The notes below the pieces were generated by a model. The model had not been told where the DNA came from. It worked only from the letters and a program-made list of their open reading frames with translations, and searched no databases. Made by a program: the position numbers and the translations under genes. Shown here piece by piece: positions 23,397-45,582 of a DNA stretch of 45,582 bases (position 1 is the stretch's first letter; every line of letters begins with the position of its first letter). Source of the DNA: a virus. The stretch spans positions 1 through 45,582 of IMG/VR virus record IMGVR_UViG_3300031364_000006; one strand, 5' to 3'.

Positions 23397-24110
23397 TTAA
23401 TAAAATTTCATCTGAGCGTCTTCATTTGCAAAACGTTCGTCCAGCATGTGGACTGTAGTCCCATCAGGTTTAAATGTTACTGGGCTATCGTTATCCCATT
23501 TCATCATCAACGCCCAATATTTGGGGTATTGCTTGCGTAAAAGTCTTAACTGGCTTATGCTTTGGTTGTGGCAAAACCAACATCCGCCTCGCGCTGACTG
23601 TGTATAAATTGGAGATAGCAAACCTAACTTTTCCGCTCGCTCTCTTGCCACTGCTTCGGTTATGTCACACTCGACCAGTGGAGATCGCTTGCGGTCTGTG
23701 AGATTGTGGAAACGGTTTGGCTCGTCTGCGGCTATGCCAATGTAAGAAATATTGTTTTTTAGTACTTTATTTATTGCATTCATTTTAAGTTGGCTATTGC
23801 ACCAATTTCCGTGAATAAGTGGGAAGCCCCAAATAGCGCCAACTCTTTTCCCCCTTTGGAACTTTTGGTAAAAACATTCTTCATAGCTTTTCTTTGCGCG
23901 TAAATGCTCAACCTCAATTCCATACCGCTCCTTGATAATCCGGTCTGCCTTTTTCTTAAATTCCATCATTGGAGGCAAGTCTGCCGGTATGGTATCCGTT
24001 GCCATGATTTCAACGTGTACAATTCGGTCTAACGGCAGTCCGTGTTCTTTGCACATTTCAGGAATGATGATGCTGTCCTTTCCATAACTTAATGATGCAA
24101 TATATTGCGT
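23397..24110 (-). CDS. PAPS-reductase/PP-loop family protein with apparent ACG start
   Basis: A 237-residue PP-loop ATP-pyrophosphatase. If initiation is at the ACG at 24108-24110, behind a perfect AAAGGAGG, the protein begins directly with the first beta strand and the PP-loop SLSYGKDS (residues 6-13), exactly where the family puts it. The open frame continues to a TTG at 24182 without a ribosome binding site. Later features are RAKKSYEECFYQKFQRGKRVGAIWGFP, a CNSQLKMNAINK helix and a GGCWFC motif. Relatives include PAPS reductases and sulfur-modification DndC; the substrate is unknown and no Dnd partners are present. Confidence 0.8.
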   Translation of the reverse strand, partial: TQYIASLSYGKDSIIIPEMCKEHGLPLDRIVHVEIMATDTIPADLPPMMEFKKKADRIIKERYGIEVEHLRAKKSYEECFYQKFQRGKRVGAIWGFPLIHGNWCNSQLKMNAINKVLKNNISYIGIAADEPNRFHNLTDRKRSPLVECDITEAVARERAEKLGLLSPIYTQSARGGCWFCHNQSISQLRLLRKQYPKYWALMMKWDNDSPVTFKPDGTTVHMLDERFANEDAQMKFY

Positions 24111-24178
24111 TGAATCGCCTCCTTTCTGCGACGCTCCGCGCTGCCAAAGCGCCGCTATTGCACAACAACTATTTAAAA

Positions 24179-24367
24179 TCAATCGGTATGTGTAACTAAT
24201 TCATAACCGCGAGAAAGTAATTCATCACCTGTGACTTTGACGATAGTTACTTTGCCTTGCCCATTTTTGTTGTCTGGGTAATGAAATTTTTCCATCCATC
24301 CGTGTGTGGCATATCCATCTGCATAATCAATTTTTTCGTGCTTGCATTTATTCGTGTAAATATCCAT
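24179..24367 (-). CDS. First early gene, small protein of 62 residues
   Basis: Protein MDIYTNKCKHEKIDYADGYATHGWMEKFHYPDNKNGQGKVTIVKVTGDELLSRGYELVTHTD with AGGAGG upstream. It is a small alpha/beta protein with a Cys/His pair near the start. It is the first gene of the leftward early operon after a 350-base leader. No family recognised. Confidence 0.65.
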   Translation of the reverse strand: MDIYTNKCKHEKIDYADGYATHGWMEKFHYPDNKNGQGKVTIVKVTGDELLSRGYELVTHTD

Positions 24368-28030: not shown

Positions 28031-28056
28031 AAGCCCCCGGATTTCTCCGAGGGCTT
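28031..28056. terminator. Bidirectional terminator between plus cassette and lysis genes
   Basis: AAGCCC-C-CGGA-TTTC-TCCG-A-GGGCTT forms a stem with one mismatch; it is followed by TTTTCTTATTTT on the plus strand and by a T7 tract on the minus strand. It closes both the rightward cassette and the leftward late operon. Confidence 0.85.
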
Positions 28057-28064
28057 TTCTTATT

Positions 28065-28349
28065 TTATTCTTTTTTCCCGTTCTTCGCCCGCAGGATTGC
28101 CGCGTAAGCGCCGTTTGCAGAAGTCGATACAATTACCGCATTGAGCGGTATAAGTGCCCATACAGCCGCAGGAGCTGTCCACATCGTTGTAAACCCGGTC
28201 GCAAGCACCAGCACAACAATCGAAAGTATGTATGACAACCATTGCGTTGGGATTTTAATTGTGTCTTTGAAAAACTGCGTCAAAATCCCGACCGCCAAAG
28301 ATGCGCCCGCCAAAGTAACTAATGTCTCCCATGTAAAAAACTGATCCAT
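28065..28349 (-). CDS. Holin
   Basis: A 94-residue protein with two or three hydrophobic stretches (about 9-25, 36-54, 58-76) and a charged C-terminus (LRAKNGKKE), next to the endolysin. It would form the membrane hole that releases the lysin. Order lysin-then-holin on the minus strand is as in many Firmicutes phages. Specific holin family not determined. Confidence 0.7.
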   Translation of the reverse strand: MDQFFTWETLVTLAGASLAVGILTQFFKDTIKIPTQWLSYILSIVVLVLATGFTTMWTAPAAVWALIPLNAVIVSTSANGAYAAILRAKNGKKE

Positions 28350-28361
28350 TTTATACCTCCG

Positions 28362-29198
28362 TTATTTTATTCTTACTGTAAACAATTTTTTCCCGCCCTC
28401 GGCGTAGATGCCAACGGTTTGACCAGGAAATTCTATTGGGACGATATGCCACAATATAAAATCAGGCCATACGCACCGTATGATCTGCACTCGTGCGGAT
28501 GTTGCGGATTTCCCGGCGATAAGGTTTACAGACCCGGTCGTCTTCGCTGTGTAGCAACCGCCTACATTAATATCAACCGTTCCTGACGTATCACACGTAA
28601 ACGGCAATGCGCCGAAATCTTTGTACGATACATTCAAATCAACATTCCCGGTTATTCCGCTAACCTTTCCATTGCTTGCATACTGCCATATATCGCACAT
28701 TCCGGACCGGTCCGTATCGTTTGGTGTAGCGTTATTGTGCCATGCTAACCAGATCGGAATACCAGCCGCACGAAGACGATCAATATCAACCAGATCCGCG
28801 ATATAGAACCAATTGCGGTTACTGTATACCATTGGTTTGTATCCAGCAGCTTTGATTCTGGTGCAGAAGTCAAGTATCATTCCGGTCAATTTGTCTTTGC
28901 CGAGCGCGGCAAGTTCACCGGATTCTACGTCCAGCGCTGCGGGCCATGTAATAGAGTAAGGTTTGATTGCCGCGATAAAATCCGCTGCCTGATCTGCCAC
29001 GGAGCCAGACCGCAGAAGATGGTATACCCCCACTGGAATGCCCGCTGCAATCGCAGATTTAATGTTTGCCGTAAAGCATGGGTCAACATAGTTTATCCCC
29101 TCCGTAGCCTTAATCATTGCGTACTGGATACCGGCGGCTTTTACTTTTGCAAAGTCTGGTTTTCCCTGCCAATGGGAAATGTCAATGCCATAAATCAT
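28362..29198 (-). CDS. Endolysin, GH25 muramidase
   Basis: A 278-residue N-acetylmuramidase of the lysozyme GH25 family. Catalytic features: GIDISHWQG (Asp6), IKATEG (Glu33) and ALDVE (Asp90, Glu92) followed by YSN and WLAWH segments and a WQYASNGKVSGITGNVDLN strand, the usual barrel end. The last 65 residues form an SH3-like cell-wall-binding domain. There is no signal peptide, so it needs the holin. It overlaps the upstream XhlA-like gene by four bases. Confidence 0.93.
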   Translation of the reverse strand: MIYGIDISHWQGKPDFAKVKAAGIQYAMIKATEGINYVDPCFTANIKSAIAAGIPVGVYHLLRSGSVADQAADFIAAIKPYSITWPAALDVESGELAALGKDKLTGMILDFCTRIKAAGYKPMVYSNRNWFYIADLVDIDRLRAAGIPIWLAWHNNATPNDTDRSGMCDIWQYASNGKVSGITGNVDLNVSYKDFGALPFTCDTSGTVDINVGGCYTAKTTGSVNLIAGKSATSARVQIIRCVWPDFILWHIVPIEFPGQTVGIYAEGGKKLFTVRIK

Positions 29199-29458
29199 GC
29201 GTTTTTCTCCTTTAATCCTTTAATATCGATTTTAATATCGGAAATATCGTTCTTTATTTCGTTTTGTTCTTGTTCAATAAGCGCAGTCTTTTTTTCAAGA
29301 TTATAAGTTCTGTCAATCACTTGATTGTGTTTTTCCACTTTTTTTTCAAGCTGGCTGATCCTGTAATTGCTTAGCTTATTCGCGGTCATAATACCGCTGA
29401 AAGTGCCTATAACGGTGCCCAAAAGTGATAATATTCCTATAATAATTTCGCGCGGCAT
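29195..29458 (-). CDS. XhlA-like lysis-associated membrane protein
   Basis: An 87-residue protein with an N-terminal membrane segment (about 5-25: IIIGILSLLGTVIGTFSGIM) and a long coiled coil (about 30-86: LSNYRISQLEKKVEKHNQVIDRTYNLEKKTALIEQEQNEIKNDISDIKIDIKGLKEK). The layout matches hemolysin XhlA/holin-associated proteins of Firmicutes phages, though with the membrane span at the N-terminus. It precedes the lysin and may act in lysis. Confidence 0.65.
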   Translation of the reverse strand: MPREIIIGILSLLGTVIGTFSGIMTANKLSNYRISQLEKKVEKHNQVIDRTYNLEKKTALIEQEQNEIKNDISDIKIDIKGLKEKNA

Positions 29459-29468
29459 GTTCCCGCCT

Positions 29469-29879
29469 CTATTCTTTTTTGATAAATTCTTTCAACGTAT
29501 CAGCGGTACATTTCCGTCTGACTTCGACCCATATAATTAGTAACGCGCCTATAACAATTAATACACACGAAAATGACAACGCAAAAACAAAAATTTCAAG
29601 CCGACACGTATCATATGCGCAGAAATGATGTTCTATAATCTTCGATTTTGTAATCCCAATTCCGCTGATTTTTTCTATATCGTGGATCTGATAAAACGGT
29701 ACATTATTTTTCAGTTTTATAATGGTTTCGGTTCCGATTCCGTTGATGTGCTGGCAACTCTGCCAATCGGCGGAAGTCATGCGGTTAACATTAATTTTAT
29801 TGTTCGCCCCGCAAAACACAATGCCTATCAGTCCAATAACTAATAGGCATATCCCAAATTTTAAAGCTTTGTGTTTCAT
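29469..29879 (-). CDS. Membrane protein with extracytoplasmic ComEA-like helix-hairpin-helix domain
   Basis: A 136-residue protein with a membrane segment at about 7-24, a domain INVNRMTSADWQSCQHINGIGTETIIKLKNNVPFYQIHDIEKISGIGITKSKIIEHH at about 29-86, and a second membrane segment at about 95-118 followed by a basic tail. The central domain has the two-helix-hairpin-helix pattern of ComEA (NGIG and SGIG hairpins), a DNA-binding fold. Charges place the N- and C-termini inside and the domain outside. It is coupled to the upstream tail gene and lies before the lysis genes. Confidence 0.7.
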   Translation of the reverse strand: MKHKALKFGICLLVIGLIGIVFCGANNKINVNRMTSADWQSCQHINGIGTETIIKLKNNVPFYQIHDIEKISGIGITKSKIIEHHFCAYDTCRLEIFVFALSFSCVLIVIGALLIIWVEVRRKCTADTLKEFIKKE

Positions 29880-30220
29880 AGCTTCGCCACCAGTGCCGAT
29901 TTCTCGGAAGGAGTGATATAGTTTTCACTTTCCGCCGCGTTAATGGTGTTTTTCATGATGTATTTTCCAAGCATAATGTGATCCGGATAAATTGAATCAC
30001 AAGCCGCTTCAAGCGCGGAAAAAATTGTGTATGTAGTCGTACCATTAGAAATTGTTTTCGCCGTGGTGTCGAACGTATACCCTAAATAGGCGCAGAACGC
30101 AACACAATTGTCATTTGTGATTTTTTGCATCATCCAATACGCTAAGGCAAACATGATCCGTAGCAACGCGGGCCAGCTACTTTTCTCGATGCATTCCTGC
30201 ACTAATTGGTAATCTGTCAT
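29876..30220 (-). CDS. Tail/lysis-region protein of unknown function
   Basis: A 114-residue soluble helical protein (MTDYQLVQECIEKSSWPALLRIMFALAYWMMQKITNDNCVAFCAYLGYTFD...). It is coupled by ATGA overlaps with its neighbours. Proteins of this type occur between tail fibre and lysis genes in related phages; function not known. Confidence 0.65.
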   Translation of the reverse strand: MTDYQLVQECIEKSSWPALLRIMFALAYWMMQKITNDNCVAFCAYLGYTFDTTAKTISNGTTTYTIFSALEAACDSIYPDHIMLGKYIMKNTINAAESENYITPSEKSALVAKL

Positions 30221-30512: not shown

Positions 30513-31471
30513 CTAACTTAAAAATGCGCAAGCGTTGCTATTACCTGTAGGCAACGTAGCTGGGTTAGATAGCTTTGTAAATGTATCCCCACTTCGTTTG
30601 TAAATCGTAATATAAGGACTGGAATCATGCGCTACAGCTAAATATGTATTGTCAGCACTAAACGCGCAACCTTCTCCTGTTCCCGTCGGCAGCGTAGCAG
30701 GGTCAGATAGTTTCGTAAATGTGTCACCGCTGCGCTTGTAAATCGTAATGTAGGGACTACTCAAATGTGCAACAGCCAAATATGTTCCATCCGTGCTAAA
30801 AGCACAACCATATCCGGTTCCTGTCGGCAACGTAGCTGGATTAGACAGCTTTGTAAATGTATCCCCACTCCGTTTATAAATCGTGATGTAGGGGCTTGTA
30901 ATATGTGCTACAGCTAAATATATTCCATCATTACTAAATGCGCAACCTAATCCGGCATTTGCCGGCAGTGTAGCGGGATCAGCTAATTTTGTGAATGTAT
31001 CACCGCTGCGCTTGTAAATCGTAATGTAGGGACTTGTATAATGTGCTACAGCTAAATATATTCCATCATTACTAAATGCGCAACCTTCTCCTACTCCCGC
31101 CGGCAACGTAGCTGGATTAGACAGCTTTGTAAATGTATCCCCACTCCGTTTGTAAATCGTAATATAAGGACTGGAATCATGCGCTACAGCTAAATATGCT
31201 CCGTCTGTGCTGAATGCACATCCATTTGCTCCGCTCGTAGGTAAAGCCGCGGGATCAGCTAATTTTGTGAATGTATCACCATTACGCTTGCAAATCGTAA
31301 TATAGGGACTATTGGAGTGTGCTATGGCTAAATATATTCCGTCTGTGCTGAATGCGCATCCATATCCATTACCTGCAGGCAAAGTAGATGGAGTCGTTGT
31401 TGACGGAAAAGTATCTCCACTATGATTGTAAATCGTAATATAGGGGTTTGTAATATGTGCTACAGCTAAAT
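30513..31471 (-). repeat. Seven 138-bp tandem repeats encoding propeller blades
   Basis: Each 138-bp unit encodes one 46-residue blade. Conserved parts are nearly identical at the DNA level, while differences cluster at the codons after AVAH (IT, SN, DS, YT, IT, LS, DS in order) and in the loop preceding CAFS. The last copy is truncated after CAF. Such repeats can expand, contract or recombine between copies. Confidence 0.9.
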
Positions 31472-32708
31472 AACTGCCTTGCTGCGAAATCATTGTCCAT
31501 GCTGAACCGTTCCATATATACGCTGTTTCAATGTTTAAAACATCGGAGAGACGGCTATAAACTACTGGGTATTTACGCTTAATGTCAATAATTGTTCCTG
31601 CTTTGCTGTAATCTCCTGTTTGCCAAGAAAGCGTATCGCTGTTTTGCGAATATCTGTGGCTTGCGAAAGTCATTGATTGTCCAGAAACCTTTTTGGGCTG
31701 AGTAATATTATCTTCGCCGTTGTTTGTATCGTCAACAATTAACATCAAGTATCCGTTTGTATAGGAAACCCGTGCAGAATCATCCAAAACAACATTTGTG
31801 AAATCGGATACATCAGCATGGTCTACCCATATATGCCCGGTCGCTAATGGCGTTGGCTCAGTTTCTGAAATTGTCAGCGGGAAGTTAAAAATTTCGGCCG
31901 TACTTCCCGCCGACTTAAAATTTAGTTTTTCACCGCTGATATCATAAATAAACGGAACGGTTGCGCCAGTTTTAAAAAATTCGTCTGGAAGGGACTCTCC
32001 GTCTTGAAGTTGGGCAGTTGTAGCGGCGGTATACGTTACATCTGTGTTTGTAGATGTATTCAACTCTAAAAGGGATACAGTCAAATCAATTGTATTAATC
32101 GTATATCGTATATAATACGCCGTTGCGGGTGATGTATATGTATCGTTACCGGTTGCGCCGCCGTAATTAACACCGCTGATATATACGCCGGACGAGTCAT
32201 ACCACGCAAGCCCGATGTCTGCAACCGGCTGAGTGTATGTGTGCCCGACAATTTTATAGGCTGTAGAGGAAGATATAATAATCAGTGGGGAAGAATAGTT
32301 TCCAATTGCGGAAGCATTTAACGTACCATCTGTATCATCTATAGATCCGGCAACCGCTAAATCTTTGTTGAATAACTGATCTGTTGGATTGATTCGAAAA
32401 ATATCGCCTAAATCATAATCGGCAGGTACTGAAAATCTGCCATTGACAGGAGAATTACTGTTTTTCAGATCGTAAACAGTTCCGGTTTTTGTGCATGTAT
32501 AGGCATCAACCCCCATTTCAATAAATGCGTCATTAACACGTCCATCAAATCCGTTTAAGTTTGTGGCGTTGATTTTGTCACCCTCTGTGGTTATGGTACC
32601 TTCGGCACGGACAACATCGAATGTATCTGTAATTCCAGTCTCGTCAAGACGGCGCCGTGTCGGATGCTCTGCTACTCTGTCAACCCATGTTTTAGGTTCG
32701 TAAGACAA
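30513..32708 (-). CDS. Tail fibre/receptor-binding protein with seven-bladed propeller
   Basis: A 731-residue protein. Residues about 1-410 form a fibre-like part, beginning with an AEHPTRRRLDETGITD anchor element and continuing with a serine/threonine-rich beta region. Residues about 413-731 contain seven near-identical repeats of 46 residues with the core YLAVAHxxSPYITIYKRSGDTFTKL, which should fold as a seven-bladed beta-propeller. The two residues after AVAH and the loop before CAF vary from copy to copy. The TTG start overlaps the previous stop; the ribosome binding site lies in the last codons of that gene. Confidence 0.8.
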   Translation of the reverse strand: MSYEPKTWVDRVAEHPTRRRLDETGITDTFDVVRAEGTITTEGDKINATNLNGFDGRVNDAFIEMGVDAYTCTKTGTVYDLKNSNSPVNGRFSVPADYDLGDIFRINPTDQLFNKDLAVAGSIDDTDGTLNASAIGNYSSPLIIISSSTAYKIVGHTYTQPVADIGLAWYDSSGVYISGVNYGGATGNDTYTSPATAYYIRYTINTIDLTVSLLELNTSTNTDVTYTAATTAQLQDGESLPDEFFKTGATVPFIYDISGEKLNFKSAGSTAEIFNFPLTISETEPTPLATGHIWVDHADVSDFTNVVLDDSARVSYTNGYLMLIVDDTNNGEDNITQPKKVSGQSMTFASHRYSQNSDTLSWQTGDYSKAGTIIDIKRKYPVVYSRLSDVLNIETAYIWNGSAWTMISQQGSYLAVAHITNPYITIYNHSGDTFPSTTTPSTLPAGNGYGCAFSTDGIYLAIAHSNSPYITICKRNGDTFTKLADPAALPTSGANGCAFSTDGAYLAVAHDSSPYITIYKRSGDTFTKLSNPATLPAGVGEGCAFSNDGIYLAVAHYTSPYITIYKRSGDTFTKLADPATLPANAGLGCAFSNDGIYLAVAHITSPYITIYKRSGDTFTKLSNPATLPTGTGYGCAFSTDGTYLAVAHLSSPYITIYKRSGDTFTKLSDPATLPTGTGEGCAFSADNTYLAVAHDSSPYITIYKRSGDTFTKLSNPATLPTGNSNACAFLS

Positions 32709-34848: not shown

Positions 34849-35220
34849 TTATGGTGTCCGTGCCGGAGATTTTGCCGTAAAGTCAACTGTTAATCCAGTC
34901 CAATGATTTTTGCCGTCTTTGCGTTTTTTAAGATTGTCACCGACGTTCGCAAAATACGCCGTGAACGTGTATGTACTATCGTCAGACGGTACTATTACCG
35001 TGTGAAATTCTGTAGGTTCGGAAAGTTTGTTCCAAACCGCATCATAGGCGGTTGTTGAATCACTTCCGCCAAGGGTTAGCGAATAATTGAAATATACTCC
35101 AATTAACTTTCTCGCTAATCCCCCATCTTCGGTGCGATTTGCATATCGGTCGAGGAAAGCGGCGGTTCGTTTCAGCGAAACAATAGGGATATCGTATGCA
35201 GTTCCATCAATCGTTATCAA
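34849..35220 (-). CDS. Distal tail-like protein
   Basis: A 123-residue beta-rich protein (MITIDGTAYDIPIVSLKRTAAFLDRYANRTEDGGLARKLIGVYFNYSLTLGG...). The size and place between tape measure and tail tip fit a short Dit-like or tail-tube-end protein. Its start overlaps the tape measure stop by four bases (ATGA). No specific motif for Dit is visible. Confidence 0.6.
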   Translation of the reverse strand: MITIDGTAYDIPIVSLKRTAAFLDRYANRTEDGGLARKLIGVYFNYSLTLGGSDSTTAYDAVWNKLSEPTEFHTVIVPSDDSTYTFTAYFANVGDNLKKRKDGKNHWTGLTVDFTAKSPARTP

Positions 35221-38012
35221 TACCGGCCGCCTCCCACTACTAATTTTGTACCGACTCTTGCAGTTTCTTTGTCCAGGCTGAATTTAATGTATTTGATTAG
35301 TCCTGCATCATCGCCAGAAGCAATGATATTTATGGATTGTGGAACGTTGCTTTGTGTGCCGGATTCCGAAAGCGCGGCCTTGAATGCTTCGACCATTGTA
35401 TCCAATGGTGTTTCAATGTTAGTCCCGCTTGTCTGATCTCCGAGTATTGCCATGAATTGACGGTTTGGAGGTATTACAGCTCCTTGTGCTAATCTTGGGA
35501 TTGACACATCGTTAAATGGGGTAATATTAAACCCAAACGATTTAATCCCGGTTATTTTTGTTACCCAATCTGGTGCTTTAATATTTAATCGATTGAGATA
35601 GCTTATTAACGCATTAAATCCGCTAATTATAAAGTTAATAAAAGATTCGACTCCCGCGATAATATCGTTATTTATAATTCCTTTAATACTGTTCCATATG
35701 CTTTTTATTTTATCAGGAATTGCGTTCCAGTTTGGTGCAACTGCGGCTGCCAGTGAAACACCTCCGGCAATTAAAAGGCCAATGCCCAAAGGAATCCCAA
35801 CACCGGAAAAACACAAGATCGCGCCAAGTGCAAGCAAAGAAACACCTACGAGCGCAGTTACAACTCCTATTGGGCCCTGTAATGCAGTTATAATTGTGTC
35901 CCAGTTAAGAGCTACAACAGCGGTTAAACCTGCCGCTCCAACCGCCATAAGAGCGATCCCTAAAGGAAGTCCAACACCGCTAAATGCTAACAAAGCGCCA
36001 AGCGCTAAAAACGCAATACTAACAGCCGCGACCACTTCGCCTATAGGGCCTTGTAACGCAGTTTGAATTGTTTCCCAGTTTAACGCTGTTACTGCAACTA
36101 AAGAAGCCGCTCCGATTGCCATAAGAGCTATCCCTAAAGGTAATGCAACACCGCTGAACGCAAGCACAGCGCCTAATACTAAAAATGCCGCGCCGACTAA
36201 TGCAGTTATTCCGCCTATAGGACCTTGCAACGCATTTGGTACGCTGTTCCAATTTATTGCAACTGATGCAGCAAGCGCAGAGGCTCCGGCTACCATTAAG
36301 GCTATTCCAAGAGGCAAACTTCCTCCTGTAAATACCATTACTGCGCCAATAGCTAATAGTGCGCCTGCTAAAATTCCTGTAATTATGCTTATGGTGCTGC
36401 CAATATGATTGCTTGTGCTGTTCCAATCTACCGCGACTGCTGCCGCTAATGATGCTGCGCCAATTGCTATTAAGGCTATACCAAGAGGGATATTCGCCCC
36501 AAGAAAACAAAGCAGTACACCTAAAACAAGGAAAGCACTTGATACTAATCCTAAAATTGTGCTTAATGTATTCGATATACTATCGCTCATGCTTCCCCAA
36601 TTAACAGCAACAGCCGTTGCTAAATTTACTGCTCCTGCAATCATTAATCCGATTCCAAGCGGTACGGCAATACCTGAAAAAGCAAGTATCGCTCCAATTA
36701 CTAACAATGCTCCTCCAATGATAGCTTGCAATGCACTTACTTGTTCCTTTAAAGTCTGTTCAAGGCTTCCCCATTCTAAGGCGCCAGCAGAAGCAATTCC
36801 AATTGCTCCGGCAGCCATAAGTGCAATTCCGATAATAGGGTGTCCGCTAAAAGCAAGAATAGTTCCGATAGCAAGCAACGCACTGCTTACAATCAAAATA
36901 GAATAAATTCCATCAAGAGATGATTTTATTTTATTTGAAAGAGTATTGTCTGCGCCACCCGTAGGGGATACTCCAAGTGTGCTACTTAAATCGGAAGGAG
37001 AAATAGCTCCCCCAGATGAACCCGAAGTTTTTTGAGCTAATGTATTGATTTTATCAAAACTTGCCAAATTATTTGATGCTTCTTTAGTTGCCTTGCTGCT
37101 TTTTTTCGTCGCTGCGGTTCCATTTTTTGTTGAATTTGTTAATCCGTCAATGGAATTTGATGCTCCCGCTGCGCTTGAAGCGATTTTATCATATCCTGTT
37201 GATTGAACTCCAAATAAATTTGCGATCACTTGCGCTACAGAATTAGCCAAAAAAGCGACATATTCAAGCCAATTTGCAAATTTTTGAAGCACCGGTATAA
37301 ATACTATTTCAATCTGTGTAATGGCCTTTCCAAACTGTTCATTTACATCACCCATAACATTTGACAATTGTTTTTGACGACCTAACGGAGTGTTTGCAAG
37401 AGCTTGATTCATTTCGCCCACATTGTTTGTTATAATTTCAGCAAGAACCGCCGCGCGCTGTGTTTTATCACCAAACTGAATCGTTTTTTTCTGTGCGTCG
37501 GATAAAGAAATTCCGACACGTGTCAAAGCCCCAGTTTGTCCTTCCAAGGCACGGCCCATCATGTTTGCAACGGCTACGGCAGACTCCGTCGTTGCATCAT
37601 ATCCATATTGCTGTGCGACAAGATTATTCATTGCTGGAATTAATTCTTTTAATTGCCCTGTTGTTGTTGTAAAAGTAGCTAACTGTTGCGCACCGGCAAG
37701 TTGTACTTCGTCACCGATTACGCCCAATTTTTGCTGTGCAGCGGTAAGATCAAGAATCGATTGTATTTGTTCATTTGTTGCGTTAGTGCGTTTGCGCATT
37801 ACGGTCGCCAATTTGGTTTCTGCCGTCGTTTGCGCAGACCAGGCTTCTTTCGCTGCTTTTTCCCAATTAACTACAGTCGTAATACTGAAAGCAATACCAA
37901 CCATTTTGGCAAACTTTTTTAAACCCGAGGTAATTTTTGATATGCCTGTTTCAACTCCGGATGTGTCTATTTTACTGTTAATTCTGACGCTGCCATCATA
38001 AATAGCCGCCAT
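35217..38012 (-). CDS. Tail tape measure protein
   Basis: A 931-residue protein setting tail length. The N-terminal third is helical (MAAIYDGSVRINSKIDTSGVETGISKITSGLKK, then ANTPLGRQKQLSNVMGDVNEQFG). The central part consists of about seven hydrophobic repeats of 58 residues with the core LPLGIALMAIGAASLxAxxALNW, which may function in membrane penetration. The C-terminal part ends TARVGTKLVVGGGRY. Gene order (Gp15 upstream, distal tail downstream) confirms it. Confidence 0.92.
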   Translation of the reverse strand: MAAIYDGSVRINSKIDTSGVETGISKITSGLKKFAKMVGIAFSITTVVNWEKAAKEAWSAQTTAETKLATVMRKRTNATNEQIQSILDLTAAQQKLGVIGDEVQLAGAQQLATFTTTTGQLKELIPAMNNLVAQQYGYDATTESAVAVANMMGRALEGQTGALTRVGISLSDAQKKTIQFGDKTQRAAVLAEIITNNVGEMNQALANTPLGRQKQLSNVMGDVNEQFGKAITQIEIVFIPVLQKFANWLEYVAFLANSVAQVIANLFGVQSTGYDKIASSAAGASNSIDGLTNSTKNGTAATKKSSKATKEASNNLASFDKINTLAQKTSGSSGGAISPSDLSSTLGVSPTGGADNTLSNKIKSSLDGIYSILIVSSALLAIGTILAFSGHPIIGIALMAAGAIGIASAGALEWGSLEQTLKEQVSALQAIIGGALLVIGAILAFSGIAVPLGIGLMIAGAVNLATAVAVNWGSMSDSISNTLSTILGLVSSAFLVLGVLLCFLGANIPLGIALIAIGAASLAAAVAVDWNSTSNHIGSTISIITGILAGALLAIGAVMVFTGGSLPLGIALMVAGASALAASVAINWNSVPNALQGPIGGITALVGAAFLVLGAVLAFSGVALPLGIALMAIGAASLVAVTALNWETIQTALQGPIGEVVAAVSIAFLALGALLAFSGVGLPLGIALMAVGAAGLTAVVALNWDTIITALQGPIGVVTALVGVSLLALGAILCFSGVGIPLGIGLLIAGGVSLAAAVAPNWNAIPDKIKSIWNSIKGIINNDIIAGVESFINFIISGFNALISYLNRLNIKAPDWVTKITGIKSFGFNITPFNDVSIPRLAQGAVIPPNRQFMAILGDQTSGTNIETPLDTMVEAFKAALSESGTQSNVPQSINIIASGDDAGLIKYIKFSLDKETARVGTKLVVGGGRY
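35720..36850 (-). repeat. 174-bp tandem repeats in the tape measure gene
   Basis: About seven degenerate repeats of 58 codons (for example LPLGIALMAVGAAGLTAVVA with a following LNWDTI). Hydrophobic strands and Trp-containing turns recur. Related hydrophobic repeats are known from tape measures of Firmicutes phages. Confidence 0.8.
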
Positions 38013-45026: not shown

Positions 45027-45582
45027 TTATGATACCGGATTCGTGGTTTTGCGGCATACGGCGCGAGCTGAATTTGTAAGCCTGTAACCGCTGTTCATTT
45101 CGACCTGTGCAAGAGAACCAACGAACCGCTCGGAATCCACCATACGGGTTGTTTCAAAATTGGTCAGGATAGAAAATGCGTCACTGTCATACATCACATA
45201 GTCAACATAATCTGCTTCCGCAACGGCGGTCTGGAATGTCACGGTGCGGAGAACCCCGCCATAATCATAATATGTTGCTGTAGAAGCGGAAAGGCCATTT
45301 GCCTCGATTACAGTAAAGCCAAGCCATGATCCAACACGTCCAGAGGCATTCAGAGCGTCGTTCATCGTAGGCGTAAAGTCACTGCCAGCGTATTCCAGAA
45401 TTGTCGCATAGGTCTTCGTGGAGCAAAGCAACACGTTTGCCATAGCGCCAGCATCAACAATAGTTTTGCGGTTGGAAAGAATGTCGGATTTGATATTGCT
45501 GGTAGTCAGAGCGTCAGCAGATGCTTCGGAAGTAGATTCATTCACAAGGCAAGCCAGCCCTGTAAGAGTATATCCCTGTGCG
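45027..45582 (-). CDS. Major capsid protein, C-terminal part (continues at the left end)
   Basis: The frame is open to the window edge and continues in phase at 1-465; the last 127 bases repeat the left end. C-terminal sequence includes KTIVDAGAMANVLLCSTKTYATILEYAG and VEMNSGYRLTNSARAVCRKTTNPVS. Unit protein length is 297 residues. A GTG within the frame is not the true start; the ATG at 465 is. Confidence 0.85.
   Translation of the reverse strand, partial: AQGYTLTGLACLVNESTSEASADALTTSNIKSDILSNRKTIVDAGAMANVLLCSTKTYATILEYAGSDFTPTMNDALNASGRVGSWLGFTVIEANGLSASTATYYDYGGVLRTVTFQTAVAEADYVDYVMYDSDAFSILTNFETTRMVDSERFVGSLAQVEMNSGYRLTNSARAVCRKTTNPVS
45456..45582. repeat. Terminal direct repeat, right copy
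   Basis: Exact copy of bases 1-127; removing one copy gives a circle in which the capsid gene is uninterrupted. Confidence 0.95.

Follow-up and report, generated by a model that had tools for sequence, protein, structure and literature searches.

A known domain, the ComEA-type helix-hairpin-helix (HhH), is present in a new setting, within phage lysis cassettes, and the gene that carries it is not a one-off, since similar genes occupy the same place in several other phages. The gene lies in a 45,582-base virus contig (IMG/VR record IMGVR_UViG_3300031364_000006), hereafter referred to as the window. Bases 1-127 of the window are identical to bases 45456-45582, and because of this exact 127-base terminal repeat the record most likely represents a complete circular assembly. 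The phage carrying the HhH gene is of gut type and temperate; the record includes an integrase (PF00589 match), as well as terminase, portal and tail genes named by eye. An Oscillospirales relative of Caproicibacter fermentans is the probable host, to judge by the 56-59% identity of the endolysin to those of prophages in that species. Elsewhere in the window, an ORF with a PAPS-reductase-like start (SYGKDS; labeled by eye) lies near the integrase end (23397-24182), a tape-measure-like protein (35217-38012) contains a hydrophobic hairpin unit repeated several times, and the tail-fibre-like protein carries several near-identical propeller-type repeats (GCAFS.DG.YLAVAH...) that are possibly strain-variable.

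The minus-strand late block of the window terminates in lysis genes and a terminator-like hairpin (Table 1). A first-pass annotation of the bare sequence had assigned the HhH gene to a lysis cassette; its coordinates for the ORF are exact, and the assignment holds, with a GH25 endolysin as the second gene downstream of the HhH gene, followed by a putative holin and then by the hairpin. The gene in between encodes a coiled-coil protein of the kind found 3′ of the HhH gene in relatives. The start codon of the HhH gene overlaps the stop codon of the upstream gene and 10 bases separate it from the next gene, an arrangement that makes translation as part of the late operon most likely. Promoter-like sites showed no excess (8 found versus 11.7 expected). 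A 13-pair stem (29850-29821, minus strand), which may be due to chance, extends over the TM1 codons at the start of the gene.

Table 1. Features of the HhH gene, its 136 aa product and the neighboring late genes in the window.
Feature	Position	Strand	Evidence or remark
Tail-fibre-like gene	30513-32708	-	Propeller repeats; close to tail-module end
Upstream gene, 114 aa	29876-30220	-	Homologue also precedes the HhH gene in the L062 orthologue locus
HhH membrane protein gene, 136 aa	29469-29879	-	ATG overlaps stop of upstream gene
TM1, residues 5-23, after MKHK	29811-29867	-	Hydropathy; AlphaFold2 helix 2-24
ComEA-type (HhH)2 domain, residues 27-90	29610-29801	-	Profile homology, AlphaFold2 model, structure comparison
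Hairpin 1, GIG 47-49, then T50 E51 T52	29733-29741	-	Kept in L062 orthologue; ComEA Lys at T52 position
Hairpin 2, GIG 73-75	29655-29663	-	K78 kept in L062 orthologue
TM2, residues 98-116, then WVEVRRK	29532-29588	-	Hydropathy; AlphaFold2 helix 91-135
TM + coiled-coil protein, 87 aa, BhlA/XhlA-like	29195-29458	-	phrog_1863 E 1.9e-11, phrog_3999 E 3.8e-5
GH25 endolysin, 278 aa	28362-29198	-	PF01183 E 3.5e-39
Putative holin, 94 aa, hydrophobic	28065-28349	-	Position and weak phrog_1299 holin match only (E 0.039)
Terminator-like hairpin with T tail	28031-28056	-	3′ of cassette

Domain, fold and predicted topology of the HhH protein

Searched against the 371 window ORFs (stop-to-stop, at least 50 aa), a ComEA HhH HMM returned the HhH ORF as its sole match at E ≤ 10 (E 2.8e-9), and the HhH domain scored 34.3 bits against a maximum of 14.3 bits among 5,000 shuffles, a margin of 20 bits. 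Comparison with ComEA (reference set of 14 Clostridia ComEA proteins) of a profile combining the window protein with its orthologue, described below, gave a probability of 97.5 and an E of 6e-12 in hhalign. These matches, together with the predicted fold, bear out the ComEA-type HhH domain proposed in the first-pass annotation. Scores against curated models were below the respective cut-offs for TIGR01259 comEA (E 0.0013, 18.7 versus 152.35 bits), TIGR00426 (E 0.0042, 17.1 versus 53.1 bits) and PF12836 (E 0.017, 15.7 versus 27 bits). The window and orthologue profile matched in 85 of 391 Clostridia genomes (E ≤ 0.001), and where loci were retrieved for such matches, the extracted ORFs were ComEA-like, with the HhH C-terminal in nearly all. 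No holin family was found for the HhH protein in Pfam or PHROGs; in PHROGs, the window protein had no family at E ≤ 1, and neither the L062 nor the L106 relative had one at E ≤ 0.01. Two readings were rejected, namely that the window protein is ComEA itself (scores under the curated cut-offs, a TM2 after the HhH, Thr at the K164 position and no oligomerization domain), and that the phage took comEA as such (given the additional TM, the missing linker and the shortened first motif).

An AlphaFold2 model built with seven viral relatives (mean pLDDT 82.7, pTM 0.51) predicts two HhH motifs of four short helices (36-42/49-58 and 65-70/76-85) with the GIG hairpins between them (block pLDDT 83-91), flanked by two long membrane helices; a poor single-sequence model (pLDDT 60.6) was set aside. 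The best Foldseek match in the PDB was a Thermus ComEA-related protein (E 0.016, probability 1.00), with none at E ≤ 0.001, and a Foldseek viral library likewise gave no match at E ≤ 0.001, its weak top matches being ComEA/HhH proteins of giant viruses. VIA-align scored the Thermus ComEA-related protein 2duy (Z 7.9, 2.8 Å, 63 residues), Geobacillus stearothermophilus ComEA 8dss (Z 7.5, 1.8 Å, 60 residues), Tex (Z 7.4) and PsbU chains (Z 5-7). Structure prediction and comparison with ComEA, which had been named as a check on the domain assignment, yielded an HhH fold with ComEA-type proteins (2duy, 8dss) as the nearest solved folds; the Z values are equal or almost equal, and DNA binders and PsbU are not told apart by the fold alone. 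For hairpin 1, two MAFFT alignments (A4 and A10) pair HIN of the window protein with GIG of ComEA, and the register adopted here, GIG with GIG and a helix one turn shorter, is that of hhalign, the ComEA HMM and alignment A11. The AlphaFold2 model is not independent of this register, because it was built on A11.

Kyte-Doolittle 19-residue maxima of 2.6 and 2.9 mark two hydrophobic segments on either side of a 74-residue middle part, and both segments correspond to long helices in the AlphaFold2 model, in agreement with the two membrane spans that had been proposed to surround the HhH. Net charges of the N-flank, C-flank and middle part are +2/+2/+1 in the window protein and +5/+2/+1 in its orthologue. 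Since the charges lie on the outer TM flanks, the positive-inside rule predicts an N-in/C-in arrangement, which would place both termini inside and the HhH domain outside the cytoplasm, as previously suggested. A lipoprotein reading was rejected, as VFCG is no lipobox and the orthologue lacks a Cys at that site (by eye).

Relatives of the HhH gene in phage lysis cassettes

The sole close match of the window HhH protein in 394 genomes of the order is encoded by a prophage (L062, contig 186 of genome G057); two tail proteins of this prophage were compared with those of the window and showed 76% identity. The L062 orthologue is a 141 aa protein of the same architecture and in the same place, with 33-39% identity to the window protein. 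It is preceded by a homologue of the 29876-30220 product (28% identity, E 9e-13 in pairwise comparison) and followed by a coiled-coil gene of which 53 codons precede the contig end, so that no TM is visible. Over 43 residues, the visible coil shares 42% identity with the product of a Caproicibacter prophage lysis-region gene, for which XhlA was matched only weakly (24.4 bits versus a cut-off of 34.7). No match to the window coil protein was found in G057, and GH25 matches in that genome sit on other contigs. The identities of the two adjacent products (28% for 29876-30220 and 33-39% for 29469-29879), set against 76% for tail genes, point to fast evolution at the tail/lysis border.

The HhH gene is accessory. 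It was not seen in three related Caproicibacter prophage cassettes (L027, L030, L031), PF12836 had no match over cut-off in the 23 records of related viruses searched, which included many fragments (22 of 25 terminase-relative loci and L027), and a two-sequence HMM found no HhH relative among 2,035 ORFs of L002-L049. Close-relative scans of viral and bacterial genome contigs with the window HhH protein returned nothing, tblastn of the same protein against INPHARED gave no match at E ≤ 10, a DNA-level search for the window cassette found no match, and neighbor-gene and tail-gene scans were likewise empty.

Viral contigs were scanned with a ComEA profile (39 loci) and again with a profile of the first phage members (14 loci, 8 of them on contigs already found); the 45 distinct contigs identified were assigned to architecture classes by eye. 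Ten encode a short protein with a single TM and a C-terminal HhH, 16 a protein whose hydrophobic, holin-like N-terminus is joined by a charged linker to an HhH at the C-terminus, 13 a terminal HhH in a protein of structural type or without a clear TM, and five host-like or other proteins; one (L145) has no relevant gene. On all ten TM+HhH contigs the gene lies directly 5′ of a TM/coiled-coil gene, followed by holin and/or endolysin genes, and in most of the ten cases the HhH gene is immediately preceded by short genes that close the tail module. A TM+HhH profile (E ≤ 1e-9) matched in 260 of 391 Clostridia genomes, mostly host ComEA as judged by match range, and two further cassette proteins were obtained from these 391 genomes. 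These two come from the only loci, among 56 genomic ComEA-like loci examined (26 + 30), in which a coil HMM built from the window coil protein and seven relatives matched, and both have phage-type neighbors. Searches of 50,697 phage records (INPHARED) by tblastn with the L062 protein, one host ComEA and six relatives from viruses or prophages returned partial matches only; the five such records inspected were bacterial-type stretches by eye, with no coil HMM match.

After merging of identical or 95% identical proteins, the set of TM-HhH cassette proteins comprises 11 distinct members: those of the window and L062, and nine others (L106, L112, L115, L126, L129, L134 with L133, L140 with L141 and L142, L146 and L161). 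The window belongs to the set as it is defined, with a membrane-anchored ComEA-type HhH encoded directly 5′ of a TM/coil gene and an endolysin nearby. All 11 are followed immediately by a gene for a TM/coiled-coil or coiled-coil protein, at a spacing from a 17-base overlap to a 10-base gap. Endolysins scoring above the Pfam cut-off were found in six of the 11 cassettes and fall into five families: GH25 (window), phage lysozyme (L129), Amidase_2 (L134 and L140), NlpC/P60 with PG_binding_1 (L112) and Amidase_3 (L146). L129 and L134 also encode a Hol44 holin above cut-off. A VanY match in L161 is below cut-off, the L106 endolysin candidate has no Pfam match, and for L115 and L126 the endolysin was assigned by eye alone. 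The four coil neighbors tested (L129, L106, L112, L140) all matched phrog_1625, annotated as "involved in bacteriocin production or immunity"; that of L140 also matched phrog_2429 and fell just under the BhlA holin cut-off (22.1 versus 22.6 bits). Because the endolysin varies among cassettes, the HhH and coil genes appear as a lasting pair, and we infer that the two are functionally coupled. This recurrent pairing with a BhlA/XhlA-type gene, which is not part of the first-pass annotation, points no less to lysis control than to DNA capture.

A tree was built from 38 HhH domains (62 columns). Grouping of the nine TM+HhH phage proteins in it is weak (93/33), and the proteins of the window and L062 stand apart on a long branch; a single clade for all 11 cassette proteins was not rejected (p-AU 0.49, few columns). 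The one-turn-shorter first motif (GIGxKKAxxIIxNRPY) is common to many relatives, and its length matches that of the window motif, GIGTETIIKLKNNVPF.

The scans also brought up other HhH-bearing phage proteins. The 16 contigs of the holin-like class (L096:3704-4186, for instance, and L097, L098, L103, L107, L109, L110, L111, L114, L117-L120, L123, L127 and L131) encode proteins in which a charged linker connects one or two hydrophobic segments to a ComEA-type HhH at the C-terminus, predicted to be cytoplasmic (three of them were searched with PF12836 and gave E values from 1e-15 to 8e-20); the loci mapped have a TM/coil gene nearby and, downstream, a 308 aa papain-type-peptidase-like gene (by eye). 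Tail-completion-type proteins with a C-terminal ComEA-type HhH occur at L124:1404-2030, L125:3611-4237 (PF11367 E 7e-9) and L100:3608-4240, and soluble phage proteins of L104, L105, L108, L113, L116 and L128 likewise terminate in such a domain. At L102:3788-4783, the gene for a soluble 162 aa HhH-ending protein directly precedes one for a holin (PF05105 E 1e-31) and one that is amidase-like, which places a soluble HhH alongside a lysis cassette.

Possible roles of the HhH protein

We take K164 of Bacillus subtilis ComEA to be the third residue after the first G-h-G (ComEA numbering). At this position, Thr is found in the window protein (Thr52), its L062 orthologue and L161, Leu in L140, and Lys in seven of the 11 cassette proteins (L106, L112, L115, L126, L129, L134 and L146). 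By the same reckoning, K78 of the window protein, which is kept in L062, falls at the position of T196 in G. stearothermophilus ComEA. In the available parts of the ComEA report (PMC9747964), DNA is contacted by hairpin backbone amides and a few lysines, the most important being K164 of B. subtilis, and T196 is a DNA contact in the G. stearothermophilus model. The net charge of the window domain is only +1. A K164-type Lys is mostly absent, too, from the Oscillospirales ComEAs aligned here, which makes it a weak criterion for ComEA. DNA binding by the window HhH domain appears plausible, because the backbone elements are kept, though the main side chain is lost. PsbU has the same fold and is not a DNA-uptake protein; this precedent, together with the Thr at the K164 position, speaks against a simple ComEA-like DNA binder.

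Our first, tentative choice is a late inner-membrane protein of the lysis cassette with a ComEA-derived (HhH)2 on the outer face, which would act with the BhlA/XhlA-type partner and the holin. Gene order and overlapping genes suggest that it would be made together with the tail and lysis proteins, and the flank charges that its termini would both be cytoplasmic, with the HhH toward the envelope. Judging by its fold, the domain could there bind the phosphate backbone of outer-face DNA released by superinfecting phages or lysed neighbors. More speculatively, such binding might alter the contact with lysis partners, so that lysis is delayed or gated, and might also hinder DNA entry. The arrangement would have a parallel in the RI/T switch of T4, whose antiholin-holin complex is strengthened by superinfecting DNA in the periplasm, although the domain proposed here is unrelated. 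A DNA-responsive lysis partner is placed first because a surface HhH would be the simplest Gram-positive counterpart of the RI/T logic, and it is supported by the fold and homology, the membrane flanks, the position among late lysis genes, the recurrence in 11 cassettes, the Lys kept in seven of these, and the conservation of architecture and place in L062 despite 33-39% identity, versus 76% for tail genes. The coil part is probably cytoplasmic, across the membrane from the HhH, and this counts against a partnership; the Thr or Leu at the K164 position in four of the proteins, the low net charge of the window domain and the accessory nature of the gene also weigh against the proposal. We know of no superinfection-triggered lysis inhibition in Gram-positive phages. 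Decidedly doubtful is a broader version, in which Gram-positive phages would have recruited the ComEA domain as an extracytoplasmic DNA sensor, part of a DNA-gated antiholin module that decides lysis time with the BhlA/XhlA-type partner; by the same doubtful reading, the module would measure superinfection or neighbor lysis, in analogy to T4 and with an independent origin.

Two alternatives follow closely behind a DNA-responsive lysis partner. The protein might be a structural accessory of the lysis complex, its HhH making PsbU-like protein contacts with the BhlA/XhlA-type partner or the holin and having no DNA function, a possible, if somewhat doubtful, explanation. It would account for the presence of PsbU chains among the best structural matches, the loss of the key Lys in the window, L062, L161 and L140 proteins, and the constant pairing of coil and HhH genes, whereas the retention of both GIG hairpins (the backbone-phosphate element) in the window protein and its orthologue despite 33% identity, and of the Lys in seven of 11 relatives, argues against it. 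A superinfection-exclusion trap, in which the surface HhH would bind or stall the DNA of competing phages independently of lysis timing, a role along the lines suggested in the first-pass annotation, seems rather unlikely. Temperate phages usually carry their exclusion genes in the lysogeny region, whereas the HhH gene is placed and coupled with late lysis genes. What speaks for such a trap is the predicted outside location, the DNA-uptake-type fold, and the existence of proteins halting phage DNA at or near the surface, as described in the available text of PMC11436027.

The other explanations are considerably weaker. The position of the gene after the tail module would suit a virion or tail-tip membrane protein, carried on the particle and aiding the passage of phage DNA through the host membrane, yet the HhH gene adjoins or overlaps the coil gene in every case, and we regard this role as improbable. 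Still less probable is a blocker of host DNA uptake that competes with ComEA/ComEC and shields the prophage from transformation-driven removal; the ComEA homology, a comEA-like gene in a host-type genome and prophages that lower host transformation, described in the available portion of PMC12637031, are consistent with it, but the late lysis-cassette position is not. Least probable of all, and a conjecture, is the binding of other envelope phosphate polymers, such as the teichoic acids of Gram-positive bacteria, by which lysis proteins would be anchored and with which the predicted envelope location would agree. We know of no HhH domain that binds teichoic acids. HhH domains grip the phosphate backbone mainly via backbone amides, according to the available parts of PMC9747964, and this would favor such binding.

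Relation to known systems

In the literature passages retrieved on HhH or ComEA with holins or phages, and on DNA-responsive antiholins, no such phage gene is described, which sustains the earlier remark that no phage system of this form was known. HhH genes in the phage papers examined belong, in the portions available, to replication, capsid-neighbor or repair contexts, not to lysis. A recurrent, position-conserved and predicted surface domain of ComEA type joins competence DNA receptors with phage lysis control, two subjects unconnected in the literature searched. If the HhH senses DNA, Gram-positive phages could detect superinfection at the membrane.

ComEA (PDB 8dss, 8dfk; TIGR01259) is the Gram-positive competence DNA receptor, and the window protein resembles it in its (HhH)2 without connector helix, its membrane anchor and its predicted extracytoplasmic placement. 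The two differ in that ComEA has one N-terminal TM and a C-terminal HhH, whereas the HhH of the window protein lies between two TMs; in that Gram-positive ComEA has a linker/oligomerization domain between TM and HhH, where the window protein has a few residues only; and in the first motif of the window protein, one turn shorter, its Thr at the Lys164 position and its locus, which is not comE. The nine TM+HhH cassette proteins (L106, L112, L115, L126, L129, L134, L140, L146 and L161) share with the window protein a membrane anchor, the position directly 5′ of the TM/coil gene and, in most, the short-helix HhH variant, but have a single TM and a C-terminal HhH in place of an HhH between two TMs. 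The BhlA/XhlA/UviB lysis-associated proteins combine a TM with a coiled coil, have no HhH, and correspond to the neighbor gene in every cassette examined.

The proposed logic, in which extracytoplasmic DNA would act on a lysis-cassette membrane protein, is akin to that of the RI antiholin and T holin of T4. In the available parts of two reports (PMC11413866, PMC12642591), RI and T meet in the periplasm in a complex that binds DNA, and periplasmic DNA of superinfecting phages leads to lysis inhibition. Unlike the window phage, T4 is a Gram-negative phage, and those parts do not describe RI as an HhH protein. With the superinfection-exclusion membrane proteins SieA and Imm, the window protein may share an outcome, the hindrance of DNA entry.
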